Assembly: GCA_003999685.1 (NCBI GenBank)
Contig: CP021223.1
Location: 1,674,001 to 1,738,000, forward strand
Direction: 5' to 3'
Length of the DNA: 64,000 nt
DNA from: Taiwanofungus camphoratus
Lineage: Eukaryota > Basidiomycota > Agaricomycetes > Polyporales > Taiwanofungaceae
How positions within the stretch are numbered: the stretch's first letter is position 1; each line of letters starts with the position of its first letter. The position numbers and the translations under genes were made by a program. A model generated the notes under the pieces. That model saw only the letters and a program-made list of their open reading frames with translations, did not search any database and was not told the origin of the DNA. This document shows, piece by piece, positions 43,251 through 63,517 of the stretch.

Positions 43251-43511
43251 AAGCAGGCCAGGAAATGCTGGCAGTTTCCGCAGGAATTCCGCAAGATTAT
43301 TCATCAACTTGATGTTCCAGCAGTCGGACCATCCGCTGGCAGTGGCACTCACGAGACCTGAAAGAAGCCACAATGGAGGGCTGACCACGCCTAGATTACA
43401 CGGGTTGTTTACTGTGTAACTGGGAACCGCTTCTCTGGTAGCTACCACCAACAGCTGTCATTTTCCCACGCTCGAAAAAAAGCAGAAAAAAGGTGCTGCA
43501 CACATAGAAAC

Positions 43512-44529
43512 ATGCCAAAAGACGAGGCCATTGGCCAACAAGGTCACAGACCTAACCCGTACCCCAAAAAGGGGAACAAGAGTGTAAATAGTGTAATAGA
43601 AAAAGGGAGAGCGAGAAAGGAAGCTGATAACACAGTGACCACACCGAGCACCCCGAAAAAACAGACAATAACCAAAAGACTGAGAGAGCGACTAACGAAA
43701 ACACCCACAAAACATAAACAGGAAGGAACCATGGAAGGAATAATGCTAACACGAGAGGAGGTGAACAAGTCCACGCCATCAAACCTCGAAAGAGACAATA
43801 GAAGTGTAGTATCATATGACGACCCACCTGACACTGAGTTCAACACAGATATATTCAATACTAATAGTGAAATAGATCACGAGATGGAGACGATAACAGA
43901 TAACGATAAGAAGAAAACAAGAAAGGATATGATGAGAGATCTAGAAGAGGCAATGAAGGGGGTAACAGAGATACTGAGCCAAATGTCAAATCACGCTGAG
44001 TTCACCACAACTATCCTAGAGGGCGCAAAGATCATCACTCAGAGACTCACACTAGGCACCGACAAACGCAACCAGACTGGAATCCAAAATGGACAAACCC
44101 ATGGAGAGAACAAAACAACAAAGAACGCTAAAGACCAAGGAACGGATCACCTTGCACAGATAGCAACATCACTTGCGAAGCTCACAACACGAATGGACCA
44201 GATAGAATCGCAACTGGCATACTCAACGAGGGCAACCAACCAAGGGGACTCAACAAGCAGGAAAAGAGGAGAGGATAGGGATGAGGCAAGAGTAACAGAG
44301 ATAAGCACATCAACGAGACCACCCCAGATAGAGACCATACCGTCAACCGTAACTAACGTCCGAGCAGTCAGTAGACCAATAGTCCCAAAGGCGCGCAACC
44401 CAGCAACAGACATGAAAAAAGGCAAAACCCTACCGACTAACCCACTAGCAGCACACCACCCCTCCCGCCTCATTGTAGAAATTCAGGATGGCGCACCCGA
44501 GGGAAAACGACCCAAAGAAGCGCAGACGG
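43512..44529 (+). pseudogene. LINE ORF1 (gag-like), 5' part, cut by an LTR-element insertion
   Basis: An open frame from the ATG at 43512 encodes a Lys/Thr/Asn-rich, highly charged protein. A helical, coiled-coil-prone middle (DMMRDLEEAMKGVTEILSQM; LAKLTTRMDQIESQLAYS) leads to a conserved-looking end, PSRLIVEIQDGAPEGKRP. This is the layout of ORF1 proteins of Agaricomycete non-LTR retrotransposons. The frame is broken at 44529 by the LTR element and resumes in the same frame at 63341, after a 4-bp duplication ACGG (44526-44529 and 63341-63344). No reverse transcriptase ORF is in the window. The 250 bp before the ATG are probably its 5' UTR. Confidence 0.75.
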
Positions 44530-46137
44530 TGATACGACCTAGGGGACCCTGTTACCTAGGGAGTGCTCCGCAACGTGGCTGGGGGTAGTGTGATAACTGT
44601 GAGGGTGTGAGGGTAGGAGCTACAACCTGTATGATACCGGGAAACCTGTATGTCTTGTTTTTGTAAGTAGGGGAGTAAGGGGTCAAGGGTCCTGCACAAC
44701 AGGATCTTGTTCCTAAGTGCTATACTATCCCTAAGGCCTTGCGAGGCCCTCCGAAGTATGCGAAGTTCTTCGAGGTTTTGCGAAGCCCTTCGAAGTTTTA
44801 GCTAAATCGCGCGAGCTGACTTCGTAGATGCTGCGAAGCCCTTCTGGTTAGAGTTAGCTAAAGGGCGTAAGGTTTTTGGAGTTTGTTAGAGCGAAGTGGG
44901 CGAGGTTTGGCTAGCATAGGAGACCTGTAGGAGAGGTCGGAGAGTTCGAGGGCGTAGAGAGATGTACTATAGCCTGTAACTAAGGCTATGGGAGGGTCGT
45001 AGGGCTATTCGTAGGACGTAGGGATAACGCAACGTGAGCCTAAGGGTATAACTAAGGCGGAGGCCCACCGGATAGGTGCTATAAAAGGTGCTGAAGGGTG
45101 CGAAGTCACGGCGACTTTCGTAGATGGTAGTGCGTAGTTCGAGAAGCGTAGACGTAGTTCGTAGCTATATCGCGAGCGTAGACGTAGTTCAAAGGTACTG
45201 AAACGAAGCTGGGGTGGAGACTTAGGGACCTTAGGACCGTTCCTAAGGTTGTACTCGCGGCGCTTTCCTGAGATCGGAGCTACAGGGGAACTGGTATTCC
45301 AAAGAGAGAAGCGTACACTGAGGGGTCTCTCTCGTACATAGTAAACTACCTCTGACTAAATAGGGGAGCGTGAGGTGAACTAATCTTGCGCGAAGTGATC
45401 CTTACGAGTCCGAAATGTGTACTAAAACGCATGGACTCCAAAGTGAACACGAGGGGGATAGGAACTAATTAGGAACTGAAACAGGGGAACTACGAACGGT
45501 AGAAAGGTGACCAACTTCATTCACGAGGGCGGGATGACTATCCGAGAGCAGCCATGCGCCGTGATCACCTATCTTAGCGGGCTAAGAGCGCACGAAGTTC
45601 TTAGCAGCGGGACTTGGCCTAATCGGGGCAGGAGGTGTCCTAACTGGGTGGAGGGCCATATGGGTACGCCCTAGGATGACCTTATGGCATAGGATCGAGA
45701 CCCATGGGGGTGCACAAGGCTTCCTAAGTCCAGCTTCCGGAACTTCGGACCGTTTCGGAGCCTATCGGAGGTAACTGCAATCACAAGAGCTAGGAGAGAC
45801 TTAGCTAAGACTTCTTAGCTAAGCCCGGGATGAGTGACGTAGTAGATAGGACCTAGATCCAATGGAACAGTATGGGAGGGCCGGCAGTGTCCGATAGTGG
45901 ACTTAGCAGGAGTTAGGGACTTCGCGTCTAGCATTCAAAATCTCGTAGCACCTCGTGTGACTTCGCAAGACTTCGTAGGGTGTTAGGAGGGTTTAGGAAA
46001 GAGAGGGGGCGTTAGGAATATTATAGGAACCTATCCCTCCTGTCGTAGGGAGTAGGAGAGTCTTAGAGTGGTCGGTTGGGGGATCAGAAAGCTCCTAAAA
46101 TCGTGATTCGAGGCCCAGGAGGCTACAGGACTCATCA
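44530..46137 (-). repeat. left LTR of the outer element (1608 bp)
   Basis: On the plus strand it starts TGATACGACC and ends GGACTCATCA. In the sense of the element it is the 3' LTR. It contains two near-adjacent CTTAGCTAAG-like palindromes at about 45810-45834 and repeated AGCGTAGACGTAGTTC units near 45150-45190. Confidence 0.9.
45080..45087 (+). promoter_or_regulatory. TATA box in the LTR facing the antisense gene
   Basis: TATAAAAG on the plus strand, about 1.2 kb before the antisense gene start at 46305. The same position in the right LTR reads TATAAGAG. The orientation is opposite to gag-pol. Confidence 0.45.
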
Positions 46138-46156
46138 CCTTCTCCCTATTGAAATC

Positions 46157-46174
46157 CTGACTGTCCTCAGTCAG
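46157..46174. other. short hairpin next to the LTR
   Basis: CTGACTG-TCCT-CAGTCAG, a perfect 7-bp stem. A related hairpin, TTGGCTG-TCCT-CAGCCAA, occurs at 49672-49689 in the pol region, preceded by the same CTCCCTATTGA motif. Confidence 0.6.
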
Positions 46175-46304
46175 TGTGCGCGACCGTGGGAATTTGTAGC
46201 CTATCGCGTCCGATCTGCGAAGCGGGCGATATCCTGATAGAAGCTAATCGTGGGTGCCTCTTATCTTTTTCTCCTCCTTCCCTTTTGCCTTTCCCTTCCC
46301 CATC

Positions 46305-47682
46305 ATGTTCGACGATATGGACTCTGATGGTGTTGGCCTAGCTCACAGCGACGTCCTGGCGCTCCTCGATTCTCGTCCGGAGGGCGTAGCGGAGGCCGAA
46401 GATTACTTGCGGTGGGCGAGGAACTTAGGACGTCGTGTGGTACGTACCCTCCTCGGTCGCCCGTTACATCGTCTTCACTGCGTTATAGGGTAACTGGCGG
46501 GTCCTGTCCCAGGCTTCGAACGCTCCTGCCGATCCTACTTTAGAGGCCGCCATCGTCGAAGGTTTGACGGCGATCCTCCCTCTCGCGGACTCGTCGTGGA
46601 TCTCGTGGGCGCGTACCGGCTTTCCTCAGTTCGCTGCTATGCTTCAAGAGCGAGACGCGCAGCGCGAACTTGCCCGCGCGACCGAACGACTTCGTGTGGA
46701 GGCGGCCGAGCGCGCTGCACTTGAACGCGCTGCCCAACTTGCGGCTTCGTCTTCTGCACCTTCGCCGGCCCCTAGTCGTACCTCATCGCGTACTCGTCGT
46801 CCCTCAGCTCGGGCCAAGGCAGCAGCTTCTACTCGCGCGGCTTCCCAGGCCAGCTCGATCATGGCCTCCGTTTCTAGCGGCCAAGTCGGCGAACTCGCCT
46901 CGTCCACGAGTTCGGGTGTCTTCGTAGGGGTCCCTCCTGCTCAGGGGAAGGATGCTGCGAAGGCGAAGGCTCCTCCGACGCCTGAAGCCCTGGCTAACAT
47001 GGCGAAGGCGGCGGAGCATAGGCGAACTCATGCGAAGGTGAGTGCACGTCCTTTTCGTGACCGTTCGCGGCTTATGATTGCTACCTAGTGCGATCGCTGC
47101 AGCACCTACACCACGGACTTTGAGTGCGAACTCCCCGCGGGCGCCGTGAAGTGTGGTAAGTGCCTGCGAGAGTCGCAGGGGTGTTATTGGGGCGGATTCT
47201 CCGTAGACGGTAAGGAGCGCGGCGTGCGCGTTTCGAAGCGTGGTAGGGCTTCTCGTGCCCTCGTTAGCGCGTCATTGCTGATGTTAGGACGTCCCTTAGC
47301 TGCGGGCCAACCTCCTCAGGTGTCCCCGCCTCGCGCCCGCGAGTCCAAGAAGGCGAAGTCGACCCCTGCGCCTACGATGTCGCTCGAGGCCTCGCTGGCC
47401 CTTAACGGCGCCGAATACTTGGACGGCCTTACCCCTGCGCATCAAGCCGTTGTCGAAGGCCTCTGGTATGACCGTGCAATGGCCGAGAGTCGCGCGATGC
47501 GTCTCGAAGACTACATCTCGGGACTTTATCGCGCCGAAACCGCCCTAACCGGTCGTACGCCTGCGCCGCTCGACTTGAGCTCTCTCCCTCTTCCTCGCCG
47601 TCGCGTCGCCGCCTCCTCTACTGATCCTGGTCCCTCCGGTGAGTCCGAGCAGGATGAGGAAGATGCCGAGGCCGAGGTTTAG
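46305..47682 (+). CDS. antisense cargo gene of the LTR element: coiled-coil protein with Zn2Cys6-like cluster
   Basis: Three open blocks (46305-46439, 46513-47037, 47089-47682) are separated by GT-AG introns of 73 and 51 nt, both in phase 0, giving about 417 residues. The gene runs opposite to gag-pol, between integrase and the LTR. The N-terminus is acidic and helical. Next comes a charged coiled coil (LARATERLRVEAAERAALER), then an Ala/Ser-rich basic linker. The third block opens with six cysteines, C-X2-C-X8-C-X8-C-X2-C-X6-C, close to the fungal binuclear zinc cluster spacing but with eight instead of six residues in the first loop. A basic VSKRGRASR follows, and the tail is acidic. The start ATG lies 167 bp from the LTR, a LTR TATA box points at it and AATAAA follows at 47806. 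DNA binding is inferred, not shown. It could instead be an independent gene captured by the element. Confidence 0.7.
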
Positions 47683-48213
47683 AAGGTGGGGGGTTCGTAG
47701 TTCGTCATCTCGCCCGTTCCGTATCTGTCGCACCAACGTGCTGTATTCTCTCTCGTTGCGCGTCCCTTTGCTAGGGACCTTTTCCAATATGTGTACAGTA
47801 GTCTGAATAAAGCGGGCGCAAACGTCGTCCTTGTGAAAAGGTTCCTAAGTGCGTGAAGTAACCAAACAACACAGCGAAGAATTAGAAGACTTAGGGGGAT
47901 AAAATGCGCTCATTTAGGCTCAGTAAATCATCATGGCCTTGAAGGGCTTAAGGCCCCTCGCGCAATCTTCGCTCCGCTCAGCGTTTTAGGAGCCTTTAGA
48001 ACGATATCGCGACTTCGTGAGTTGAATCACTATAGTAAAAAGTAGGAGATGTTGTAAGTAAAAATTCGTAGACATTCGGAACTTCGTAGCTGTCAAACTG
48101 AGTGGGGGCTTGTTGGGGAATGTAAAACATGACCAAAGGGTAAGTGAAAAGTAAAATGGACGTAGCGTAATCTTAGCTAAAGTCGGGGTATCGTCGATTG
48201 CTCCTCTGATTCT
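47683..48213. other. 531-bp non-coding segment between convergent cargo gene and pol
   Basis: It holds AATAAA at 47806-47811, a likely polyadenylation signal for the plus-strand gene. The rest is non-coding with many TTCG/CGAA and TTAGG words like the rest of the element. Confidence 0.6.
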
Positions 48214-51200
48214 TTAGTGAGATTCGGATGGACTAGAGCCGGACTTAGGAGAGTAGGGATACGATCCTAGTTCTTCGTCATCGCCTTGGGTGGTAGTCAG
48301 CTCTAGTTCGCGAAGTCGCTCCGTCGACACGTCCAGGAGTTCGGTAGGAAGTTCGAGGGCTTTTCGCGCTAAGTAGGGGATGACTCGGAAGGCTGCCGTA
48401 GGCCTGTCGAGTACCGAACCATCCAATTCGCATAGGATATAAGCACCACCTTTGTTTCTAGATACCACGAGTACTGGGCCGAGGTAGCGAGGTCGCATCT
48501 TTCGATTTAGGGACTTTTCTATCTGTGTGTTGCGAATTAGTACTAAATCGCCCTTTTCGAAGTTGAAATCGTGGATGGTGTGCTTATGCTTCTCTTCGAA
48601 TCGCAGAGCAGCTTGTCTTCACGCTTCGTAGACCTTCGAATGTAGTTCCGCTACCTGAGTCACCCGCTTTTGCAATGCGATAGCTCGTCGTGCGATAAGA
48701 TCGGTCGTGGATAGCATGGAGGACGGAGGAGGAAGGATATAGGTGGCCTCTACGACGTCCAAAGGGATAACAGAGTGGGTGCCAGTGACCGCGAAATAGG
48801 GCGAACATCCCATGCGCTTTCGAGTCGTGATCCTTTCGGACCAGAAGACCGAGTACGTTGCCTGAGACCATTTAGACTCTTCGCCATCCACGGCCTTGAA
48901 TAGAGCCTGCCTAACATCGAAGTGAGGCCTCTCCACCAGTCCGTTGGCACGCGAATTGTATCCGCTAATTCGGATATGTCGTAGCTGGTACTTCTTCGCT
49001 ATGTAGTTCGTAGCTTTTACGAAGGGAGCACCGTTGTCCGTGACTATCTCCGATAGCGCGCCCCACCTACAAACAAAGTCTTCGAAGAGCCATTCTGCCA
49101 AAGCTTTAGCCGTTTCCTTGCGAAGCATCCGAAATTCGGGGTACTGGGTTAGAGAACACCGGCCTTGCACCAAGTACCTAAATCCGTTAGAAGGGGGCAT
49201 ATGCATGGTATCTATGTGAACCTTTGCGAAGATCGGAGCGGGCGTAGCGACCGTAGGAGGAATTAGGATCTGCCGCACTTGGCGAATCTGGCATAGGTGG
49301 CAGCTTCGAACATACCAGGCAATGTCGATATGATGGTAGGGCCACCAAAACCGCTCTGAAATCAGCACCTTCGTAGCGTGTATTCCTCGATGCGCGACTG
49401 CATCGTGACATTCTCGGAGGATTCATAGACGATCTGCCTGCTTAACAACTAGTTTGTGAGCTCCTTGTGGATCTTTGCGCCATAGTATGTCCTCATCGAG
49501 GAAGAATAGAAGACAGTATTTTACGAAACCTTCGTATTCTGCATCCGATAGGTTGGCAGGTCTCGTGAGGCTTCGTAGGAATTTTGCTACTAAGTCAAGT
49601 CTTGCGTCAGCTTCCTTGGCCATTTCGGATCTTGGGACGGTATCGTAGCTCTCCTCCTCCCTATTGAGACCTTGGCTGTCCTCAGCCAACTCGGAGGCGA
49701 AGGTTGGAGCTATTGGAGGTGTGGGTGTTGTGATAGGAATGTTAGAGGCGAATTCGTAAGGGAATAGGGTAGAAATCGATGGTATAGGATGGGAAGGGGG
49801 GGCTTGGATGTGATGTAGAAACGAGTGCATTTTGTCTATCCAGTCTTCGAAGTCTTCTTCGCTGCTCTCTTCTTGATCTCCTGGCTGGGGGGTTCGTCTT
49901 GATAGTCCATCTGGTCCATGCATCGTACCTGGTACATGTACTAGGGTGAAATGGAATGTTAGAATCGATACGATCCAGCGATTTATACTCGCGCTGGGTG
50001 CGATGTCCGGATTTTGCAACATCCCTTTGATATAGCGTGCGTCCACTTCCACTATAAGGTTCCTAACTCCGATTAGGTAGATTTGTAGTACGCGAAGTGC
50101 TCGAAACAATCCGTAGATCTCTAACTTCGGTTGCGAGAACCTCCGCTCACGATCATTTAGGGTGATGGATCCGAAACGATTGTAGAATCGGACTTTAGGG
50201 TTGTCCTCATCGCATTGGCAAAGGTGATAGCCAACTGCAATATAGGAGGTGTCAACCGCTAAGATGACGGGCGCACCTGACAAATAGTTAATGGATCGGA
50301 GAGCTGGAGAGGACAGCAAAGCATCCTTAAGGTCCTCTTGCGCTGCGATTTGCGCTGGACCAAATTCGAAGGGTACCGCCTTTCGCGTTAGGCGTACTAA
50401 GGCATCTGCACGATGCGCGAAGTTTCGGATGAAGATATGGACCACTCCAATGGTTCCTAAAAAGGCTCGAACGTCAGATAGGGTCGCACAAGGTCCCCAG
50501 TTGCGTATGGCTGCAACACGAGACTCGTCCGGTAGGCGACCTTCTGGAGTACACCGATGCCCTACAACGGTGATTTCGCGGGCAATTAGAATGCTTTTAA
50601 CTCCAGAAAAGGTACCTCCTGCATAGCGCATGCGTGTGACTATCCTATTGAGGTTCGTAAAATGTTCCCAAACAAACTTTCGAATGCCTGGGTTCTCCGA
50701 AATAGGTACAAGATCGTACGAACTTTCAGGGCCTTTGACCGGAACATCGTCGATATAGGGAACCGTTAGGTGAGGAATTTCGGGCTGTAGGATGTGCGTA
50801 ACATCATTGTGGAAGATAGGGACCGAGTTGGTCCACCCCATAGGTAGAGTGACCAATCTCATAGCTCCGAAAGGTGTTTGAAATGTCGTAAGATCGCGCG
50901 AAGTCTCCGCTATCAAGCGTTCATCATAGCCTACATATAGATCCAACATAGCACCACAAGGTCGTCCTCCGAACTGTTCTGCGAGGTGTTCGGGAGTCGG
51001 GGGAACGCCTGAGTGTTGAATCGTGACAGCGTTTAGGGGTTCCAGACTATGTACAAGGCGTAGGGACTTTCCGTCTTTCTTCACCACACAAAACCATCGT
51101 GAACGATAGGAAGAATTCGAAGGTTCGTAGACCCCCGCTGCGATCTTCTTTTTGATTATTGCGCACACTTCGTTGTAGATTCCGGGTGGGATAGGAATGT

Positions 51201-52053
51201 TCTTTTGTACCCATGGCGTGTGCGGTACTACCGGAAAGTCGATGGGAGGGAAGTACTCCGGCTTGAAGCACCCTCTTTCGGAATCATTCCAAGCGAACGC
51301 ATCAGCATGCAGGGTCATAAAGTGATGTAGGAGGTCCCTCTCTGCTGGTTGTAGGAAGTCTCCGCTGTGTAGCTTGTCCGTGAGATCGTGCCGTTCTCGC
51401 GTATATCGCAAAGTAGGTTCGAAAGGTGGTGGAGTCAGTGATAGGGTAGGCATCGTTGCTAAAGGGTCGCCTTTAATTTCGCGAATGATTCGGAATCGTT
51501 CGTCCAAAGCTCCCAGAATAGGGCGAGTCTTCAGTGCTACGGGCTTGTACTTCTTTTTCGATGCTGCAAAAGTAGGAATAGGGGAAGAATCTGACAACTT
51601 AGGAAGGGATACCCTCGGATTAGGAGCAAGGGCAGGTCTTCGGGCTAACTTCGTGACCTTCGTAGCGTTCCTGGGACCTGGAATGGGGATAGAGGAAATG
51701 TTCCTAGAGGTGGAAAGCGAAAGCATAGGGAGAGAATTCGGATCATCGTGTGAAAGGGAGGGAGCCTCGGGCGGTGTTGCTGCTGCTAGAAAGCCAGATA
51801 GCCACCTAGTATTATCAGCAGGACCTTCCGAGACTTTCGAAGTTTCGCTAAAATAGAGAGACTGCAGATAGCTAGACACAGAGTTAGAGACTGATAGATA
51901 GAGCGCAGGAACAGAATTGTTATCTGCTGCATTTACAGCAGCGAAAGACACAATTTTAGGGGTATCGGATTCATACTCAACGACCAGGGCGACCTCTCCT
52001 TGATTTCTCAAATCCTCGAAATCTAAAAACCCGATCGCAAATGATTCGAAGAG
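48214..52053 (-). pseudogene. pol region of the outer element (reverse transcriptase, RNase H, integrase)
   Basis: The longest open stretch holds a reverse transcriptase with a YIDD active-site box, an RNase H-like region (ILAVDTSYIAVGYHLCQCDE) and a tether ending HVPGTMHGPDGLSRR. The downstream part carries an integrase zinc-binding piece (CHLCQIRQVRQ) and core motifs (DTMHMPP, EIVTDNGAPF, GLVERPHFDVRQA). The order is that of Ty3/Gypsy elements. The region looks broken, with about two or three breaks. Confidence 0.85.
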
Positions 52054-52624
52054 TGTTACGGGGGGTCTACGCCCGTAGGTGACTACTGTGACGGGGGGTC
52101 GTTGAGTAGTCAGGCGTGAAGTGTAAACGAGGAGTCAGCCTGGCTGACGACGAGTACACGTCTAAGTCTTCAACCGCTAGCCCAACGGTCTCGAGAGAGT
52201 TGCGGGCTAAGTCACAGCCTATGTCCTAGTGTAGTCACAAGGATATAGGTGGTCTAAGGCGACCCGTTGAATAGACAAAGGTATAGAGGCCTAAGCCCAG
52301 TCGTGAAGTACAAATGGTAACGACAGCACCAAAGTACACAGTGTAACTAAGGAGGACAAGATTGGGGTGCTCCGCGGTGAGCCAACCCCTTAAGTACTAT
52401 GGTGGGTTTAGGGCAAGCCAGCCCTCACTCCCACGGGTACCAGCACCTAAGCGTCCATAAGTCAGAGGCCCAAGTGGTCCCTTCTGAGGAACAGTCCATA
52501 ACTAAGCGGGTGACGGTCGGCCCGTCAGGAATAATGGTGATAATTGTAAGTGTACACGACCCGCTAGTCCGGTATAGTAAAGAGAAATGAAAATATATGT
52601 TCGCACCATTATCGCCTTGTAACA
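52054..52624 (-). repeat. left LTR of the nested chromovirus (3' LTR in its own sense)
   Basis: It starts TGTTACGGGG and ends CGCCTTGTAACA. It matches 58056-58626 over its full 571 bp as far as I can read. Confidence 0.95.
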
Positions 52625-52637
52625 TTACCCCCCTCTC
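52625..52637 (-). other. polypurine tract of the nested chromovirus
   Basis: Read on the minus strand, GAGAGGGGGGTAA directly precedes the 3' LTR. It overlaps the stop codon of the ORF at 52636-53391. Confidence 0.8.
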
Positions 52638-53391
52638 AAGGACTCGTCGCCCCGACGATCGAACCCTCAGCGTCTGACCCCTCTTGTTCTGATTTGACCC
52701 TGGCTCGTGGTCGGAGGGTGTCAGACTGGTCGGAAGGGATATCGTCATCGCTGGTATGCATGCAGTCATGGCTCCAATGTCCCATTTGTCGGCATCGTAT
52801 GCAGAAGGGGGAGTTCCCCCCACTGGTCGAGCTAGGGGTACCACCAGTGATAGAGTTGGGCGGACCATCACTGACAGAAGGGGCCTGTGTTCTGGCCTGA
52901 TGTCGTGGCGGTATCAGGTTGTCGATGACGCCCATTAGAGGGGAGCGCATGAGGACGGCGAGCAGGTTGCGGGCTGCTCGGCTTGCATCTATGTGGAGAG
53001 TGGCCAACTGCCACGTTGTCGGGTTGTTGCCATTTGGCCCAAGGCCTGTTTGCCTTCGTTCGAGTGTGGCCAAGCTGCCAGCCTCTCGCGCGACAATGAC
53101 CAGTGTCCGGTAAATGTTCGTCAACTCCCACAGGTCTGGCCAAGCCAACAGCCGGGTGTCTATTTCTGGGCGTAGATCGGCATCCACCAGGGCCCAGGCC
53201 GTGCGGTGCGCAAGTCTCCACTGATCGTACGGATCGTCGGACGCTGCCAATGGGGGCACTGTCTCTTGAATGTTTCGGTAGGGGTGTGCGCGTGTGTGTC
53301 TTGCTCGTACTCGGGGTGCGAGGTCTCGTACCCTTGCTGCGCTGTGGTTCAAGTAGACGGATAGCTGTCGGGGGTCTGTATGAGTGGACAT
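52636..53391 (-). CDS. second zinc-knuckle ORF at the 3' end of the nested chromovirus, 251 aa
   Basis: This open frame starts about 520 bp before the end of the long pol frame, in another frame, and stops at the polypurine tract. The first 170 residues are helical with many Arg/Ala/Leu (DQWRLAHRTAWALVDADL; WELTNIYRTLVIVAREAG). A Ser/Thr/Pro linker then leads to a perfect CX2CX4HX4C knuckle, CIRCRQMGHWSHDC, and an acidic tail. The position corresponds to that of an envelope or extra gene, but no signal peptide or membrane span is present. It resembles a small nucleic-acid-binding, Gag-like protein. Whether it is expressed is not visible. Confidence 0.65.
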   Translation of the reverse strand: MSTHTDPRQLSVYLNHSAARVRDLAPRVRARHTRAHPYRNIQETVPPLAASDDPYDQWRLAHRTAWALVDADLRPEIDTRLLAWPDLWELTNIYRTLVIVAREAGSLATLERRQTGLGPNGNNPTTWQLATLHIDASRAARNLLAVLMRSPLMGVIDNLIPPRHQARTQAPSVSDGPPNSITGGTPSSTSGGNSPFCIRCRQMGHWSHDCMHTSDDDIPSDQSDTLRPRARVKSEQEGSDAEGSIVGATSP

Positions 53392-56300
53392 CGTAGTGCC
53401 GTGCCTCCACTGAATGTCGGTTGTATGCAGCTCTGCAGATCCGGGTGTAGCGGGCGTTGACCTGGGGCCTTGCAGGCAACCTGTTGACCTTCTTATATTC
53501 CTCCAGAAGGTCGGGCGAGTTCCTTAAGTCCGCCTCGGACTGCCATGTATTAGCCGAGTTTGGCCATCCAACCCATTTGATTAGGAACTGCCATTTCCCA
53601 CGTTGGGCACGATGCCCGTGAATGGCTTCGACTTCGTATTCTTCATCGCCATCGACTAATTCCGGGGGCGGCCTTGTGAAGTTCGGACCATGTTCCTTGG
53701 TTTCCCTGTATGGTGTCAACAGCGATGCATGGAATACTGGATGTATCTTCCATGCCCTTGGTAGCTGAAGCTTGTACGTTAGCGGTCCTAGGACTTCGGC
53801 TATCTTGAGTGGTCCCACTCGCTTTGGGGAAAACTTCCTCGGGGTCTTTAGGCGGAGGTTAGTCGCTTCTAGCCAAACCTGCGTCCCCTTCTCAAGTGGC
53901 TGCCATGTGGTTCGAGCCCTTTCTGCCATCAACTGCGCAGCTAGATCCTGTGCTGCCAGTGCTTCCTTTCTGAACTCTCCGATGGCAAAGAGTCGGTCCT
54001 TGATTGATGGGTACCTTTCCGATGCCTTTGGTGATCCGATTGCCTTTGGATCATATCCCATAATCAGCTTGAATGGTGACTCCCTTCTTCCAGCATGCGG
54101 CACCTGATTGTGTGCGAATTCAAATTCCGGGATAAACTTTGCCCAGTTATGAGGATTGTTGGCACACAGGATCCTCCATGCGGCTTCGAGTTCCTGATTG
54201 ACACGCTCAGTGCTTCCATCAGACTGCGGATGGTAGGCAGTGCTCATGGCCGCTTTGACACCTGTCAGCTTGCACCACTCCCGGAACACCGTTGCTGCAA
54301 ACTGTGGGCCTCGGTCCGATATGATTCTGTCAGGTAGCCCATATCGCCGGTAAACGTTCTGATGGAGTGCCTCGGCTGTTCCTACTGCATCGATGGTCTT
54401 GTTGCAAGGAACCAGGACTATCCCTTTGGACAGTTCTCGGTCCACCACTACCATTAGTGCGTCAGATCCACGCGATTCTGGCAGGTCTGTGATGAAGTCG
54501 ACTGAGATGTGTGAGAACGGCCTGGAGTTCGGTTCCGTTGGGATGGGTTGCATTGGTGGTCGTGTTGGATGCGTGTTGACCTTATTCTCCTGGCATTTGG
54601 CGCAGCCTTTCACGTATTTTTCGATAAACGTGGCCATGCCATCCCAGAACCAGTCCCTTCTAGCAATGGCAAACGTTCCCTGTGCTCCTGGATGGGCCAT
54701 AGCTGGGGTGTCATGGCAAAGTCGAATGACTTCTCTGCGCAAGTCATCACTAGGGGGTACGTAGATTCGATTTTTGTACAGAATCAATCCATCCTGCACA
54801 TCCCAATCGGCCAATGTTGTGTGCGCAAATCCAGTGCCCTTGAATGGTGGTACTTTCCCCCGTTTTAAAGCGTCAATCGTCTCGATGACCATGCTGTCAC
54901 GACTTCGGTGTTGCCGGATGCGCTCGATGAGGTCAACATTAACTGCCTTTGCAAACAGTGTTTCTGGTAAGAGGACAATGTCCTCATTGTCCCTCTCGCC
55001 CCCTGGATGTCCTGGTCTACGTGATAGGGCGTCCGCCACTACGAGTCGTTTACCCTTTCGATTCTCCAGTCGTAATTCGAACTGTGAAAGCAGTAGTTGC
55101 CATCGTGCCTGGCGTCGTGTTAGCCGTTGGGCTTCTCTGAAGTATGTCAGGTTCTTGTGGTCCGTTATAACCGTGACCGGGTGCTTTGCGCCCTCCAGGT
55201 GGTGACGCCATTCCTCAAGTGCTCGTACGATTGCCAGTAGTTCTCTATCATAGATCTGATAGTTCCGTTCTGCTTCCTTCAGCGATTTTGAAAGGAATGC
55301 CACCGGGTGAAGTTTCCCATCAGGGCCCTCCTGTTGCAGTACTGCACCTGTCGCAACCAGTGAGGCATCGGCCTCGATTACAAACGGTTTCTCAGGGTCG
55401 GGCATGGTGAGTACTGGGGCCTCACAAAAACGGCGTTTAAGTGCCTCGAAGGCTGCCTGGCACTTGTTCGACCAGTTCCAAGCTACCCCCTTTTTCTTAA
55501 GTGCATTCAGGGGGTGGGCGATGTCTGAGAATCCGCGTATAAACCGTCGATAGTAATTGGCAAGGCCCAGGAATCGTTCCACATCTTTGACTTTGGTCGG
55601 TATGGGCCATTCATCGATGCCCCGCAGCTTGCCAGTGTCCATATGGATGTGGCCTGGTGTGATGGTCATTCCCAGAAACTCAACTTCTTGTACATCAAAG
55701 GCACACTTTTCCGGTTTCACAAAGAGGTCCATCTCCTGCAAGCGTTGCAGTACCCGGCGTGTCCGTTCTCGGTGGATGGTAGCATCATCGGAGTAGATCA
55801 GGATGTCGTCCATATAAATGGCTAACCATCCTTCCGCAAGCATGTCTTGAAACCCATCATTCATAAGCCGCTGAAAGGTGGCCGGGGCATTGCACATGCC
55901 GTAGAACATTACCGTTGGTTCAACTAGCTTCTTGGTTCCGTGGTGATTCACCATGAACGCTCCCTTCCACTGGTCGCCCTCCCTGATGCGTACATTGTTG
56001 TAGCCATTTCGGAGGTCCAGCTTCGTGAATATAGTTGCCTTTTGCAGGTTGTCGATGAGCTCTCCAATGAGTGGGAGTGGGTATGCATCTTTTATCGTGC
56101 TGTTGTTGAGGTATCGGTAATCCTGACAGGGCCTGAGTGTACCATCCTTTTTTGCTACAAAAAATGCTGGGGAGGCCATGGGTGACTTTGAGTCCCGTAG
56201 ATATCCTTTCGCCAGGTTCTCGTCAAGGAACTTGTCCATCTCTGCTTGTTCGGCCAGGGATAATGCAATTACCCCGCACTTCCTAGGTACAAAGTTAGGC

Positions 56301-57850
56301 TTTGTCTCCACAGCGTGGTCCCATGGTCTCGAATCAGGGAATCGAGCAGCGGCCGCCTTTTCAAAGCGGTCCCGGTAGTCGAGTAAGTACTCAGGCACCA
56401 GGTCTTCAATCTGTGGCCCCTCCTCAGGGGGTGTCAGTGGTGCGCTTGTCTGCCTGGCGGTGGCTATGAACCGTTTTGAGCCCCTTACATGGCTGTTCTG
56501 ATCTAACGATGGTTGAGACTTCTTGGGTGGCTGCAGCAGGCCCATTTCATCGAATAGGGGCTCCGGTTGATCGTTGAACATGCCTAAGACCCCTTCTCCC
56601 CTTGTATAAGCACATAGGATGGTTTCTAGCTCATCATCGTCCTCGTGTGCAGAGGCTCGGCACAATGGGATGCCGTCCGTGGTAGGCTGGTTCATGATCC
56701 AAGCATAGTACCCCTGCCATTCCTTAATCCTGTCTGGGTCAACCGTGAGGGTCCCTTTCGGCCAATCAATCTGCGGGTTGACTTGAATCAACCAAGGGTT
56801 GCCCAGCACTACTTCGAGGTCCCCGATGTCCGATACATAGAAGTTTGTGGGTATGTCATACCCTTCAAGCCGTATGCTCCCTTCAACTCGATGGGTAATT
56901 GGTCCACCCCTGTTGGGGGTCCCATCAATGGTCGTACTTCGTACCTTCCGAGGTAGCGGTCGTGTGGGCAGTCCCCATCGTTCCACAAGGTCAGGGTGTA
57001 TGAGGTTGGCATCGGCTCCGCTATCGATTAGTGGTCTCACAGCGATGGCCCTTTTCCCGGCGACAACATAACCTTCTACATACAGAGTGGTTCCTTTCCG
57101 GTATCCTGTGATTGTGGCCCCCATTGAGATGGTCGGGTCCTTACTGGTCTTTGGCTTGTCCAAGTTTCTTTGCGTAGGTTTCCCTGTGCCTTCAGCCAAT
57201 GATTCCCCTCCTGGGGCATCAGTGAAGTGCTCAAAATGAGGGAACCGTTTCTGTTCAATGGATTCTACGGTGGATGTTCCTAAGGATTCCTCCGTTTCTT
57301 CACTGCTCCAGTAGTCTGCTGGTGGGACCGGATATGGCTGGGTTTCCTCCAAGGCGAAGTCGTCTGAGTTTGACGAGTGGTGCAGTTCCAGTTCCCTGTC
57401 TCTCCCGGTATCATTGGAAGGTTGTGGAAGTCTGGGTTCGCTTTTGTGTGGATTATCGTGTTCATCGTCAGCTTCCCCTAGGGCCACGTCTCTGTGTCCT
57501 TCCTTTCTGATTTTCCTGGGCTCCGGGCATGCCTTGACCAAGTGTCCTGGCTTCCTGCATCGGTAGCAGCTCCTCTTCTTCCAGTGATGAGGTGTCAGAG
57601 CTGTATTGGGGTGGTTGTGTCGGTGTCCTTGCCTGGAGCCTGTGCCTCTCTGCCCCTGTTCAAGGGCCTCAGTGGAGGGCTGAGAAAGTCTGAGGTCATT
57701 GTCGCTTGGGGTAAGCGGTCCATCCCAGGGGATCCCTAGGGCTGCTTCTTCTGTTGTTTCCGGTCGGGGTATGTAGTCTTCCTCCCTTCCTTCCTTCAAT
57801 TTTCTTCGCCAGGTGATAGCTCTCCAGACTATCGCCAGGAACTTCTCCAT
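52868..57850 (-). CDS. Pol polyprotein of the nested chromovirus, 1660 codons
   Basis: Domain order by rough residue: knuckle CYRCRKPGHLVKAC (about 94), retropepsin with DSGAD (about 277), reverse transcriptase with YMDD (about 690), RNase H (VIEADASLVATGAVLQQEG), integrase HHCC zinc region and core (SVDFITDL, IISDRGPQFA, HPQSDGSTERVNQELE), and a chromodomain (WQFLIKWVGWPNSANTW, about 1440-1490). The sequence beyond the chromodomain overlaps the other ORF and looks less protein-like. A capsid-type domain upstream of the knuckle was not seen; only about 90 residues precede it, and 205 bp separate the start from the LTR. Confidence 0.9.
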   Translation of the reverse strand: MEKFLAIVWRAITWRRKLKEGREEDYIPRPETTEEAALGIPWDGPLTPSDNDLRLSQPSTEALEQGQRGTGSRQGHRHNHPNTALTPHHWKKRSCYRCRKPGHLVKACPEPRKIRKEGHRDVALGEADDEHDNPHKSEPRLPQPSNDTGRDRELELHHSSNSDDFALEETQPYPVPPADYWSSEETEESLGTSTVESIEQKRFPHFEHFTDAPGGESLAEGTGKPTQRNLDKPKTSKDPTISMGATITGYRKGTTLYVEGYVVAGKRAIAVRPLIDSGADANLIHPDLVERWGLPTRPLPRKVRSTTIDGTPNRGGPITHRVEGSIRLEGYDIPTNFYVSDIGDLEVVLGNPWLIQVNPQIDWPKGTLTVDPDRIKEWQGYYAWIMNQPTTDGIPLCRASAHEDDDELETILCAYTRGEGVLGMFNDQPEPLFDEMGLLQPPKKSQPSLDQNSHVRGSKRFIATARQTSAPLTPPEEGPQIEDLVPEYLLDYRDRFEKAAAARFPDSRPWDHAVETKPNFVPRKCGVIALSLAEQAEMDKFLDENLAKGYLRDSKSPMASPAFFVAKKDGTLRPCQDYRYLNNSTIKDAYPLPLIGELIDNLQKATIFTKLDLRNGYNNVRIREGDQWKGAFMVNHHGTKKLVEPTVMFYGMCNAPATFQRLMNDGFQDMLAEGWLAIYMDDILIYSDDATIHRERTRRVLQRLQEMDLFVKPEKCAFDVQEVEFLGMTITPGHIHMDTGKLRGIDEWPIPTKVKDVERFLGLANYYRRFIRGFSDIAHPLNALKKKGVAWNWSNKCQAAFEALKRRFCEAPVLTMPDPEKPFVIEADASLVATGAVLQQEGPDGKLHPVAFLSKSLKEAERNYQIYDRELLAIVRALEEWRHHLEGAKHPVTVITDHKNLTYFREAQRLTRRQARWQLLLSQFELRLENRKGKRLVVADALSRRPGHPGGERDNEDIVLLPETLFAKAVNVDLIERIRQHRSRDSMVIETIDALKRGKVPPFKGTGFAHTTLADWDVQDGLILYKNRIYVPPSDDLRREVIRLCHDTPAMAHPGAQGTFAIARRDWFWDGMATFIEKYVKGCAKCQENKVNTHPTRPPMQPIPTEPNSRPFSHISVDFITDLPESRGSDALMVVVDRELSKGIVLVPCNKTIDAVGTAEALHQNVYRRYGLPDRIISDRGPQFAATVFREWCKLTGVKAAMSTAYHPQSDGSTERVNQELEAAWRILCANNPHNWAKFIPEFEFAHNQVPHAGRRESPFKLIMGYDPKAIGSPKASERYPSIKDRLFAIGEFRKEALAAQDLAAQLMAERARTTWQPLEKGTQVWLEATNLRLKTPRKFSPKRVGPLKIAEVLGPLTYKLQLPRAWKIHPVFHASLLTPYRETKEHGPNFTRPPPELVDGDEEYEVEAIHGHRAQRGKWQFLIKWVGWPNSANTWQSEADLRNSPDLLEEYKKVNRLPARPQVNARYTRICRAAYNRHSVEARHYDVHSYRPPTAIRLLEPQRSKGTRPRTPSTSKTHTRTPLPKHSRDSAPIGSVRRSVRSVETCAPHGLGPGGCRSTPRNRHPAVGLARPVGVDEHLPDTGHCRARGWQLGHTRTKANRPWAKWQQPDNVAVGHSPHRCKPSSPQPARRPHALPSNGRHRQPDTATTSGQNTGPFCQ

Positions 57851-58055
57851 CTTTCCGGTGTTTCTTATCCTTCAATTCAACACTGATGGTACGCACTTGT
57901 AGTCAAGTGATCCTCCTGCCAGTCCCTTCCAACGGGGACACTGGTCTTACCCAATCCTTCCTATGAGGACGTTGGTGAGGGTCCGGTTTCTTCCGCTTGC
58001 TCGCGTTCTAATTCGCTATCCTGAGATAGAGTTTGTAGAAGGAATCTTGTCCTAA

Positions 58056-58626
58056 TGTTACGGGGGGTCTACGCCCGTAGGTGACTACTGTGACGGGGGG
58101 TCGTTGAGTAGTCAGGCGTGAAGTGTAAACGAGGAGTCAGCCTGGCTGACGACGAGTACACGTCTAAGTCTTCAACCGCTAGCCCAACGGTCTCGAGAGA
58201 GTTGCGGGCTAAGTCACAGCCTATGTCCTAGTGTAGTCACAAGGATATAGGTGGTCTAAGGCGACCCGTTGAATAGACAAAGGTATAGAGGCCTAAGCCC
58301 AGTCGTGAAGTACAAATGGTAACGACAGCACCAAAGTACACAGTGTAACTAAGGAGGACAAGATTGGGGTGCTCCGCGGTGAGCCAACCCCTTAAGTACT
58401 ATGGTGGGTTTAGGGCAAGCCAGCCCTCACTCCCACGGGTACCAGCACCTAAGCGTCCATAAGTCAGAGGCCCAAGTGGTCCCTTCTGAGGAACAGTCCA
58501 TAACTAAGCGGGTGACGGTCGGCCCGTCAGGAATAATGGTGATAATTGTAAGTGTACACGACCCGCTAGTCCGGTATAGTAAAGAGAAATGAAAATATAT
58601 GTTCGCACCATTATCGCCTTGTAACA
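58056..58626 (-). repeat. right LTR of the nested chromovirus (5' LTR in its own sense)
   Basis: Copy of 52054-52624, followed by the AAGAG target duplication at 58627-58631. The 205 bp between it and the pol frame form the leader. I could not match the first leader bases to a common tRNA primer with confidence. Confidence 0.95.
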
Positions 58627-61534
58627 AAGAGTTCGCGTGGGGGCAACTATGATGATGGGCTGGTAAGAACTTTTGACGTCCTCGAGGCATCGTAGGGATG
58701 GTCGCGACTTCGCTCGTGTTCGGGCATACGATCGTGATGGTCTGCTCCTCGTTTCCGAAGTTCTTAACCACACTCTCGGTTACCACATCGAAGGGTCGGC
58801 CTAGAAGGATATCGTAGGAGGGATTGCGTATGACGTGTATCTGTAGGTACAACACGATGTCGCCTACTTGGAACGAGACATTTCGAACCAGTCCTAAAGA
58901 ACGGTCAATACTGCCATTAGCAGACTGCATATTTAGCTGCACGGAAGGGTCGTAAATTAGCCCTAAGGCATGACAGACTTGCTCTGACATCGCAACCACT
59001 TGTGACCCAGGGTCCACGATGCATTCGATTCGCTCTTTGTTGTCAATTAGGGCTTCGATAGAACGGATAGAATTCGAGTCGCGGGCTACTATGATTTCGG
59101 AGGGTTCTTCCTTTCCGGGTACGTGTCGTAAGTACGTTTCGTAGGGGTCTGGAATGATGGTCGAACCAGGGACAAGGGGTTCACCATGGCACGATAGTTC
59201 GGAGGTTGCTAGCATCGTTTTAGAAGCGAGATCGTCTGAGAGTTCCGTAATTTGAGCCATATGAGTAGCCTTAGGATCCATAGGCACACGTTTAGGGGTG
59301 ATGGCTTCGCGATATCGCGCACGAACATCCGGGGATATAGATAGTAACTCCTCAGGCGTTAGTGTAACCACTGGTGTCCTCATAGATCGCGCGAATATTT
59401 CCTCTGTAAGCTTCTCCTGATGAACCGGTGTGATCGTCTTATAGGCCACGTCCTTGCCCTTGTCTGCTGTAGGCTTCGGAGCTGCTGCGAAATTTCGAAG
59501 ATTCGGAGGTGCGTAAGTAGCATCTCGAGCGTTAGCGAAAGGATGTACTGGTGGAGTGGGCGGTGGAATGGCTGCCTGTGATGCTGGTTGGGCTGGTACG
59601 TTAGATGTAGACGCGGCATGCTCCGATGAGTTCGGGGGTGGATCGGACACATTCGCAGGCTTCGGAGGCGAAGGCGCTGAATTAGAAGGATAATTGGATC
59701 GCTTTAGAATGGTAGGAGGGGTCTGGTTCTGCACCTCCGCTGCTGGGGCATCTTGGTTAGCAGGGGGATCCACTACTGGATGCTGAGCGCGTCCTATCGG
59801 AGGTGCATTGGCTACGGGCGGGTTTCTAGGATCAGACTGCGTGTTAGGAGCACCCTGCCTTCTGCGCTGGGGTACTTCCACACCATCGAAGACTTCGCGA
59901 CGTCTCCGAAGTTGGTAAATCTCGTGTTCTAAAGCGGCTATACGATCCTCAGCAGATAGTGAGAATGCAGGCACATTTAGGCGGTTGTCGATTTCGAATA
60001 GGAGCTGTGGGGAGGAATTCGTGCCATTTCGTCGATGATATTCGTAAAGCCTATCGCGAATCGTACGTCCTGGGATCGTTCTGGGTACGAAATTTCCATT
60101 TGGCAGCACTATCTTTCCATCTGGGTTGCGCTTGCACTTGCCATCCTTGATGTCTTGCTCAATGTGCTTGCAACACCTAGTGCAGCAGTCCAAGTCCCCG
60201 CAATAGTGACAGTACTGGCCTTCTACATGAGTGTGCTCGCCGCGCGAGCTGTCCAATCGAGGAGGTCGCTGGTTCGCAAGAACAGGAGCTAGCGCACTGG
60301 TTACGGACTTCGTGAGGATCTCCGCGAACGTCTGTAGATCCTCTATCTTTAGCGATGAGCCCCCCACGGGCACGGCAGTGGGCGAAGTAGTTACAGTCAT
60401 AGCAGAGGTAAGAGTCGTAGAAGTACCAAGGAGTACGAACTTCGCCGCGCTATGTAGCTGGTCCAAGGTGTAGGGATCATCGGGTAAGTGATCAGGGAAC
60501 TTTAGCTGTAACCTAGTAGACACGCGAGCCCATAGCGAAGGCTGGAAGGCCCTCGCGAAAGCACGGCTTTGCTCGATAGTAGACAACCTATTTTTCGAAA
60601 TTAGGTACTTCGTGATGGCATAAAACTCACGATAGAAGCTTCCTAAGTCTGCCGCATTGTTGATTCCAATTCTAGCACGTTCTCCTATCAACTGATCCAA
60701 GTCAGACATAGACCACATTCTATCGTCCTCTGTGCCTGGGTAGAGGCTTCTAATCTCCTTCTTGAAGTCTTCGTAGGTCTTCGTGACATCGGAACACTCA
60801 GGGAGGGACTCCCATAGGTCCGAAACATCGATAGGAGGGTAGCGAGTAGTCCAGTGTTTCTTTGTCGCCTCATCCGCTATCTGGCAGCGGACAAAAAGTG
60901 ACTCTAAGTCCTGGAAATACCTTCGGATGGTCCTAGGCTGGTCAGGATCGAAGGTGGGGGATGTACGATCTCCTCGAGGTGGCATGAGTGGAGGTGCGTT
61001 CATGGTTGACACAGAAATAGGATTTAGGGGATTAGCTAAAGTGGGTGCGGTCAAAGATGGGTTCGAAGCTGAGTTGATGCTAGCTGACGAAGATTGGGTC
61101 GTAGAAGCGTCGGAAAGTGTAATAGAAGGAATCGGAGGGGAACGCGAAGCTGATAGGAGCGTAGAGGATAGCGGAGGGGATTCCGGTAAATGGACTAAGA
61201 TAGGGTCAGACGCTGAAGAAGGACCGCTTCCTTCGGAGGTGTTAGGAAGCTCAGGGGACGTGGACTGAGGTTCGAAGTCCTCAATTGGCGAGTCTTCGGA
61301 CGTGGTAAGCGTGTCTAGAGACCCTTCGAAAAGAGCCTCGAAGTCGGGGGTCGATTCGGAAGATTCGAGTGTAGAAATGATATCGGAGGGGATAGTCGTA
61401 GGTGTTTGCAAAGAGGTGCTTCGTGGAAGGCCTGCTTGAGTATAGTAACGATAGCCGACCTGAAAGAACTCGGATAGTAACTGATCGCTGTTTCTCGGAG
61501 AGGACTGGTTAGACGTAGAATGATCTGAAGGCAA
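58627..61534 (-). CDS. Gag and protease region of the outer element, cut at its 3' end by the nested insertion
   Basis: It starts at the ATG at 61534, 40 bp inside the LTR. About 190 disordered Ser/Thr/Pro residues precede a Gag core of the common Agaricomycete type (RTIRRYFQDLESLFVRCQIA, LGSFYREFYAITKYLISKNR, SRAFARAFQPSLWARVSTRL). A Cys/His segment (YCHYCGDLDCCTRCCKHIEQ) and VLPNGNFVPRTIPGR follow. The last part is an aspartic-protease-like region with VDPGSQVVAM and PSYDILLGRPFDV. Apart from the nested insertion this stretch is open. Confidence 0.85.
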
Positions 61535-61552
61535 TGAAATCTTGACTGCTCC

Positions 61553-61570
61553 CCCTCGCGGTGGGCTCCA
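61553..61570 (-). other. primer-binding-like site of the outer element
   Basis: On the minus strand, four bases after the LTR, comes TGGAGCCCACCGCGAGGG. It begins TGG as expected for pairing with a tRNA CCA end. The tRNA was not identified. Confidence 0.5.
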
Positions 61571-61574
61571 GAAA

Positions 61575-63340
61575 TGATACGACCTAGGGGTCCCTGGTAC
61601 CTAGGGAGTGCTCCGCAACGTGGCTGTGGGGTAGTGTGATAACTGTGAGGGTGTGAGGGTAGGAGCTACAACCTGTATGATACCGGGAAACCTGTATGTC
61701 TTGTTTTTGTAAGTAGGGGAGTAAGGGGTCAAGGGTCCTGCACAACAGGATCTTGTTCCTAAGTGCTAGACTATCCCTAAGGCCTTGCGAGGCCCTCCGA
61801 AGTACGCGAAGTCCTTCGAGATTCTGCGAAGTCCTTCGAAGTTTTAGCTAAATCGCGCGAGCTGACTTCGTAGGCTGTATAGAATTAGGGAGCAATAAGC
61901 CAATGGACTATAATTTCTACTAAGCGGCAGAGGGTACGAGACTGCTGCGAAGTCCTTTTAGCTAGAGTTAGCTAAAGGGTGTAAGGCTTAGAGGTTTGTT
62001 AGAGCGAGGTGGGCGAGGTTTGGCTGGCGTAGGAGACTTGTAGGAGAGGTCGGATGGTTCAGAGAGCTAATACTTGGAATAGAAATGAGGGAACGAGGTT
62101 GCTGGAAGCTCTGAAGTGTCTGATGACGTCGAAGTGTGGGTCAGAGAGTTCGAGGGCGTAGAGAGATGTACTATAGCCTGTAATGAAGGCTATGGGGGAG
62201 TCGTAGGGTTATTCGTAGGACGTAGGGATGACGCAATGTGAGCCTAAGGGTATAACTAAGGCGGAGGTCCACCGGATAGGTGCTATAAGAGGTGCTGAAG
62301 GGCACGAAGTCACGGCGACTTCGTAGATCGTAGTGCGTAGTTCGAGAAGCGTAGACGTAGTTCGTAGATATATCGCGAGCGTAGACGTAGTTCAAAGGTA
62401 CTGAAACGGAGCTGGGGTGGAGACTTAGGGACCTTGGGACCGTTCCTAAGGTTGTACTCGTGGCGCTTTCCTGAGATCGGAGCTACAGGGGAACTGGTAT
62501 TCCAAAGAGAGAAGCGTACACTGAGGGGTCTCTCTCGTACATAGTAAACTACCTCTGACTAAATAGGGGAGCGTGAGGTGAACTAATCTTGCGCGAAGTG
62601 ATCCTTACGAGTCCGAAATGTGTACTAAAACGCATGGACTCCGAAGTGAACACGAGGGGGATAGGAACTATTTAGGAACTGAAACAGGGGAACTACGAAC
62701 GGTAGAAAGGTGACAAACTTCATTCACGAGGGCGGGATGACTATCCGAGAGCAGCCATGCGCCGTGATCACCTATCTTAGCGGGCTAAGAGCGCACGAAG
62801 TTCTTAGCAGCGGGACTTGGCCTAATCGGGGCAGGAGGTGTCCTAACTGGGTGGAGGGCCATATGGGTACGCCCTAGGATGACCTTATGGCATAGGATCG
62901 AGACCCATGGGGGTGCACAAGGCTTCCTAAGTCCAACTTCCGGAACTTCGGACCATTTCGGAGCCTATCGGAGGTAACTGCAATCACAAGAGCTAGGAGA
63001 GACTTAGCTAAGACTTCTTAGCTAAGCCCGGGATGAGTGACGTAGTAGATAGGACCTAGATCCAATGGAACAGTATGGGAGGGCCGGCAGTGTCTGATAG
63101 TGGACTTAGCAGGAGTTAGGGACTTCGCGTCTAGCATTCGAAATCTCGTAGCACCTCGTGTGACTTCGCAAGACTTCGTAGGGTGTTAGGAGGGTTTAGG
63201 AAGGAGAGGGGGCGTTAGGAATATTATAGGAACCTATCCCTCCTGTCGTAGGCTGTAGGAGAGTCTTAGAGTGGTCGGTTGGGGGATCAGAAAGCTCCTA
63301 AAATCGCGATTCGAGGCCCAGGAGGCTACAGGACTCATCA
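61575..63340 (-). repeat. right LTR of the outer element (1766 bp)
   Basis: Same ends as the left LTR. It contains two extra stretches of about 75 and 88 bp (near 61869-61943 and 62049-62136) that the left LTR lacks. It is followed by the ACGG target duplication and the resumed LINE ORF1. Confidence 0.9.
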
Positions 63341-63517
63341 ACGGTCCAAGACATTAATGAACAACTGCAGAAGTACAAAGACAGTAAACACATACGGGTT
63401 GTAAACGTAAAGTACAACCCACAAAACAACTGCATTGTGTTTGTACGGGCTGACCAACAGGCAACCGAGCTGATCCCATTCGCTAATAGATTTATGGAAC
63501 TAATAGCAGGAGACCGG
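63341..63517 (+). pseudogene. continuation of the interrupted LINE ORF1
   Basis: It is open for its whole length in the same frame as 43512-44529. It encodes DINEQLQKYKDSKHIRVVNV followed by NNCIVFVRADQQATELIPFA, a pattern typical of the conserved ORF1 end of Agaricomycete LINEs. It is cut again at 63517 by an LTR in inverted orientation. Confidence 0.75.

Follow-up and report, generated by a model that had tools for sequence, protein, structure and literature searches.

Plant elements are known to carry antisense open reading frames between pol and the 3′ LTR (PMC7264820, PMC11963269), and the examples of this class, termed aORF-3R, include gene23 of maize Grande, an antisense frame of rice RIRE2, and ORF4 of Retand with its TRP28 domain; the passages of those reports that treat them describe a suspected nuclear or DNA-binding role (PMC7264820, PMC11963269). 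How LTR elements came by their antisense genes is described as unknown, one reason being that similar genes had not been seen outside the elements (PMC7264820). Among fungal LTR elements, Boty of Botrytis cinerea carries an extra antisense gene, brtn (PMC7264820, PMC8365987), and in the retrovirus HTLV-1 the antisense gene HBZ is expressed from the 3′ LTR, gives rise to spliced transcripts, and lowers sense transcription (PMC6950816). Taiwanofungus camphoratus (Polyporales), for which four sequenced strains and published RNA-seq are available, has a genome marked by a burst of Gypsy elements (PMC8865532); sections 6 and 7 of that genome paper make no mention of an antisense gene.

Here we describe a spliced gene at positions 46305 to 47682 of a 64,000-nucleotide stretch of T. 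camphoratus DNA (the window; G000:C4:1674001-1738000, from a genome of 33.2 Mb in 15 contigs), which lies on the strand opposite the gag-pol of a Gypsy-type element, in the interval from pol to the 3′ LTR. Like the plant aORF-3R genes, it stands on the opposite strand between pol and the 3′ LTR, it is present in most copies of its element family rather than as a single transduction, and it is conserved as a protein in the manner of other element proteins; Pfam scans, in which it matched no family, showed no sequence relation to them. With brtn it shares the status of an extra antisense gene in a fungal LTR element, although the host of Boty is an ascomycete. The original paper on brtn is reportedly that of Zhao et al. 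(2011). HBZ is likewise an antisense gene at a 3′ LTR, with which we compare a predicted transcription and function in T. camphoratus, but it is a bZIP protein of a retrovirus and we claim no sequence relation to it: Pfam scans gave no bZIP match, and the leucine-zipper family PF14389, at an E value of 0.27, fell far below the cut-off. Antisense genes at this place were already known in plants and in Boty, and the gene described here has several introns and a cellular homologue; a literature search covering titles and the starts of abstracts, with subscription papers mostly outside it, turned up neither a basidiomycete LTR element with a spliced, multi-intron antisense gene nor such a gene with a cellular homologue.

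Gene structure and the host element

The gene has four exons and encodes 406 amino acids in the four-exon model (Table 1). A sequence-only reading of the window had proposed three open blocks separated by two phase 0 GT-AG introns of 49 and 51 bp; these coordinates were borne out, with the stop codon ending at 47682, and the cysteine spacing that it gave (C-X2-C-X8-C-X8-C-X2-C-X6-C) is exact, but a third intron inside the last exon had been missed. Among aligned close copies, codon periodicity vanishes across this intron (47243-47299), of which the GTAGG donor and a CTGAT/CTAAT branch-like site are mostly kept while the remainder drifts. Its GT is lost in 3 of 60 close copies, and a stop codon lies inside it in the older copies L022, L039, and L041. 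The matching stretch is absent from P0003, the NCBI model of a free-standing homologue treated below, and a second element family (family B) has a phase 1 intron at the same position. Because the third intron lies inside what had been taken as the last exon, part of the basic stretch that the sequence-only reading placed after the cysteine cluster is intron; exon 4 has a basic PPRARESKKAK stretch. One element copy annotated as a gene (P0001) agrees in intron 1 and in the end of exon 2 and differs in the rest.

Upstream, a leader of 167 bp separates the ATG from the inner edge of the 3′ LTR, which places the start of the gene outside the LTR itself; a purine-rich stretch of the leader, read in the sense of the element, adjoins the LTR, which is the likely site of an antisense promoter. 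Downstream, the AATAAA sits at the noted distance from the stop, but it is weak evidence, being there in only 38 of 60 close copies and at that place in none of eight older or partial rows, some of which end short of it. The longest reverse-strand open reading frame listed in the region has 155 codons, and a bacterial promoter scan of the region was uninformative for a fungus.

Table 1. Positions of the antisense gene and of the parts of its host element in the window
Feature	Position	Strand	Remarks
3′ LTR of host element	44530..46137	-	TG...CA
Leader, LTR edge to ATG	46138..46304	+	CT-rich stretch before ATG
Exon 1	46305..46439	+	ATG at 46305
Intron 1	46440..46488	+	49 bp, phase 0, GTACGT...TAG
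Exon 2	46489..47037	+	SWISWARTGFP segment; Ala/Glu-rich stretch, probably helical (helix modelled in homologue P0003)
Intron 2	47038..47088	+	51 bp, phase 0, GTGAGT...CTAG
Exon 3	47089..47242	+	six-cysteine cluster at its beginning
Six-cysteine cluster, CX2CX8CX8CX2CX6C	47089..47184	+	amino acids 229-260
Intron 3	47243..47299	+	57 bp, phase 1, GTAGGG...CTGAT...TTAG
Exon 4	47300..47682	+	basic PPRARESKKAK stretch, VEGLWYDRAMAESRAMRLEDYI segment, acidic end, stop
AATAAA	47806..47811	+	124 bp 3′ of stop
pol part of host element	48214..52053	-	RNase H and integrase H2C2 matches
Nested second Gypsy-type element, younger	52054..58626	-	LTRs 52054-52624 and 58056-58626, identical, 571 bp
gag and aspartyl protease part of host element	58627..61574	-	separated from pol by the nested element
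5′ LTR of host element	61575..63340	-	ACGG outer flank

The Gypsy-type host element runs in minus orientation from 44530 to 63340 and has ACGG at both outer flanks. Its pol is broken, as the sequence-only reading held, though mainly by the nested element, which separates gag-protease from pol, with two in-frame stops in this copy in addition. The nested insertion is very recent, as its identical 571-bp LTRs, an open gag-pol frame of 1667 codons, and the AAGAG on both of its sides attest. Near the 5′ LTR, a piece of the same LTR lies inverted at 63502-64000 and is perhaps the start of another copy, and beside the 3′ LTR the + strand holds a 397-amino-acid open frame with many charged residues (43395-44588).

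Copies of the gene and selection on it

A first search yielded 76 candidates, and the gene was found at its 1378-bp length in all 40 of the places scored; gene and protein searches together, with part of the candidates scored, place copies at at least 74 sites in the genome. We aligned 68 of these, leaving out five fragments and the free-standing homologue, and set aside eight older or partial rows (L022, L023, L024, L028, and L039-L042), so that 60 close copies remain, the window included. Under the four-exon model 47 of the 60 are intact, with start and stop codons, an unbroken frame, and each of the six splice dinucleotides in place, and 13 are not. The six cysteines are kept in every close copy (60/60) and in all seven older copies that could be scored.

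Linkage of the gene to its element is tight. Among the 36 loci with enough flanking sequence (32 shorter loci were left out), an LTR adjoins the leader or start in 33, the exceptions being L016, L028, and L041, and pol lies opposite the gene in 32, with L022, L034, L040, and L041 as exceptions. Starting from pol instead, a gene copy lies 538 to 543 bp away in 40/40 scored pol copies; of 112 candidates, these 40 are the ones most closely related to the pol of the window. These counts uphold the proposal of a transposon-borne spliced gene; the window copy is far from unique, and homologues, which might have turned up solely as free-standing host genes, sit with the element in many copies.

Across the 60 close copies, nucleotide diversity is 0.023 at first, 0.016 at second, and 0.069 at third codon positions, and it is 0.079, 0.105, and 0.079 in the interiors of introns 1, 2, and 3. 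The leader (46138-46304), at 0.029, is below the introns. Computed on the three-exon model and uncorrected for transition bias, pN/pS is 0.205 when pooled and dN/dS ranges from 0.07 to 0.34 over 41 listed pairs; these values are far from the neutral ones that would have contradicted the sequence-only reading. Distinct variants number 186 synonymous, 187 nonsynonymous, and 7 stops, against 134.6, 274.6, and 13.5 expected from the spectrum at noncoding sites, a ratio of 0.49 of neutral with young damage included. We also counted changes by parsimony on a 64-row tree with L040 as the root, taking a neutral N/S of 2.04 from noncoding variants. Internal branches carry 306 synonymous and 123 nonsynonymous changes (omega of ∼0.20) and terminal branches 506 and 476 (omega of ∼0.46). 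The tiny p-values of this analysis overstate the case, since the copies share descent, may have undergone gene conversion, and thus lack independence. The lower internal omega indicates functional masters with decaying copies, the gene being needed while copies spread and decaying in dead ones. In the 30 copies that have both, the gene shows 228 synonymous and 184 nonsynonymous distinct variants and the pol C terminus 107 and 107, and the ratios are similar. The reverse-strand frame rc1, the third positions of which fall on the third positions of the gene, for that reason gives a similar count (172 synonymous and 183 nonsynonymous, with 24 stop-related). On these measures, the substitution pattern indicates strong purifying selection on the antisense gene. 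As a separate observation, third codon positions hardly vary in the stretch right after intron 3 (47314-47403; 0.021 to 0.031 versus 0.069 overall), which suggests an extra constraint at the DNA or RNA level.

Related genes in family B and outside elements

A search with a piece of the integrase, in which 144 of 356 candidates were scored, found beside the window's own family (family A) at least 33 integrase matches that cover at least 213 of 267 residues at 65 to 79% identity. Four copies of family B were fetched, with integrases 76 to 79% alike to those of family A. A cysteine-cluster gene lies antisense just after pol in three of the four (L075, L076, and L078), on the same side of pol and with the same cluster as in family A; the fourth, L077, holds the 3′ part of the gene only, interrupted. 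The gene of L075 has five exons and encodes 386 amino acids, and its introns 1, 3, and 4 correspond in place and phase to introns 1, 2, and 3 of family A. Some 240 bp beyond the ATG of L076 comes a purine-rich tract with a TG start, which is probably the 3′ LTR. A gene start inside the polypurine tract of family B was considered and dropped, L075 lacking ∼215 bp of the leader found in L076 and L078.

A subfamily of B, at ∼72% DNA identity, also keeps the gene. Among 12 B-type rows, five are open throughout (L075, L078, L079, L080, and L081) and L084 is open, but its extracted row begins short of the ATG; stops occur in L076, L082, L085, and L087, L083 is partial, and L086 is badly aligned. The six cysteines are found in the 11 readable rows, with a stop within the cluster in L082 and L087. 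Between B and its subfamily, dN/dS is 0.19 to 0.23 over 20 pairs with dS of 0.92 to 1.14, and the introns are 42 to 47% different. The five close B copies give only a weak signal of selection, with dN/dS of 0.40 to 0.62 and intron diversity (0.026 to 0.057) not above that of the codon positions (0.054/0.054/0.069). The acceptor of the extra, B-specific intron is not kept in most subfamily rows as aligned.

Outside elements, a genome search in which part of the candidates were scored found a single free-standing homologue (L043, C3:1164016-1165346; here called F). Its introns 1 and 2 have the same places and phases as those of the element gene, and the third intron is likely also present. In this strain the donor of that third intron is awkward (L043:3900-3980), since its best GTAAGT does not keep the phase, and here the protein annotated in strain V5 departs from it. 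The neighbors of F are an RNA12-domain gene and a reading frame, without a Pfam hit, that we take to be nucleoporin-like.

Where F came from can be argued in two directions. It may be the antisense gene of an ancient element, the rest of which has decayed, that now serves the host and perhaps acts against the elements; we regard this as a serious possibility, if not quite a probable one. The evidence tilts towards F coming from an element in that F is nearest to A (39.6% protein identity, versus 28.1% for B-F and 26.3% for A-B) although the A and B elements are related, as their similar integrases show. Wherever the context was examined, the other relatives in the genome sit in element families. 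Protein searches named no relative from another species, their matches being T. camphoratus proteins plus P0004 and P0005, which are near-identical pieces of F; the initial searches scored only the ∼8000 candidates sharing most words, so that distant relatives may be missed. Against domestication, no gag, pol, or LTR similarity is found within 7.5 kb around F, and A, B, and F form three lineages that are unrooted without an outgroup.

The same clean surroundings speak for the opposite direction, in which F would be the original cellular gene, taken up with its introns in antisense by an ancestral element, either as DNA or via a transcript of the other strand. F is moreover intact, single, and placed among host genes, it shares intron positions with the element genes, and strain V5 has an annotated protein for it (P0003, which stands for a cluster of three sequences). 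We nevertheless consider capture from the host unlikely: with F as the source of both families, B must have evolved clearly faster than A to account for the identities above, and F as a query recovered nothing but F itself (222 candidates, E ≤ 1). Because a cellular homologue with common intron positions exists, the question of where such antisense genes come from is one that synteny in related fungi can settle.

The protein and its proposed role

The six-cysteine cluster had been read from sequence as Zn2Cys6-like, an identity that fails on spacing, on Pfam, and on profile comparison. Canonical fungal Zn2Cys6 clusters follow C-X2-C-X6-C ... C-X2-C-X6-8-C, with six residues between the second and third cysteines; the cluster common to families A, B, and F has eight there in all three. 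What it has in common with the fungal domain (Zn_clus, PF00172) is six cysteines, two C-X2-C groups, and basic residues further on, but it is without the basic CRxRKxKC core present in most of 8 aligned host Zn_clus clusters, 0 of 11 cluster sequences match the PF00172 model, and hhalign gave a probability of 5.7%. A genome scan with PF00172 returned 26 places, none of them a copy of the element gene or F.

Neither the whole protein nor its homologue matched any Pfam family; a SusD-like match (E value of 0.0095) and other weak ones were below the cut-off, as were PSI_Plexin-B and PSI_integrin, which were hit by 3 and 6 of the 11 cluster sequences, respectively, at best E values of 0.0094 and 0.19. 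A PDB sequence search with the cluster profile gave one match that is not meaningful (E value of 1.1), and a plasmid collection gave none. The model of P0003 has a mean pLDDT of 64.9, with helices between residues 3-151 and 280-338 and the cluster near 50, and the cluster modelled alone reached 55.9; Foldseek returned no match at E ≤ 0.001, and weak RING- and GATA-type matches above that value were not used. The retention of all six cysteines in A, B, and F is consistent with metal binding.

In our assessment this is probably a genuine accessory gene of a Gypsy-type lineage that encodes a nuclear protein regulating its own element and is expressed from or beside the 3′ LTR. The proposal builds on the four exons, the 47 of 60 intact copies, the purifying selection, and the occurrence of the same gene with three of the same introns in family B and its subfamily, and it follows what has been proposed for plant antisense reading frames and described for HBZ. 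Transcription would begin at a promoter that lies within the 3′ LTR or immediately interior to it and proceed towards pol, and the antisense RNA would be spliced into an mRNA for a protein of ∼406 amino acids. The introns would survive retrotransposition because the genomic RNA holds them only as their reverse complement, in which form they are not spliced out, and the gene thereby suggests how introns can persist through reverse transcription. The protein would have a helical part at its N terminus, followed by the putative metal-binding cluster, a basic stretch that could serve for nuclear entry, and a tail of acidic residues. In the nucleus, it might act on the LTR or the nucleic acid of its element and so adjust either sense transcription or those steps of the cycle that are nuclear; it may thus control its own element. 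A bolder extension, which we put forward tentatively, is that a whole Gypsy lineage in a basidiomycete carries its own intron-containing antisense regulator as an independent counterpart of HBZ and that the gene has passed from element to host or from host to element, the free-standing copy with the same introns serving the host, possibly as a domesticated repressor of the elements, or the element carrying a stolen host regulator.

That the antisense RNA matters, and not the protein, seems to us quite improbable. Such an RNA might form double strands with the genomic RNA or block sense transcription, as the convergent arrangement with pol would allow and as has been discussed for plant antisense reading frames (PMC7264820), but here amino acids are under selection, the introns drift, and retention extends to the cysteines and almost every splice site, and an RNA role alone predicts neither the dN/dS nor the cysteine, splice-site, or intron-drift pattern. 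Chance reading frames opposite a GC-rich stretch, or an assembly artefact, can be dismissed with near certainty: long chance frames are common here, and many overlapping ones are listed, but the copies reject this explanation through their codon periodicity, their intron-specific divergence, and splice sites that are retained among them and in B and its subfamily.

With dozens of copies, the element provides a fungal system for testing the control of retrotransposons by an antisense protein. Some copies lie in distinctive arrangements. Four gene copies at G000:C10:627142-659924 share one orientation and an even spacing of 10,468 to 10,469 bp, probably a tandem array of whole elements, and at G000:C3:1638230-1646060 and C4:2447220-2453947 very similar element copies are paired in opposite orientation a few kilobases apart.
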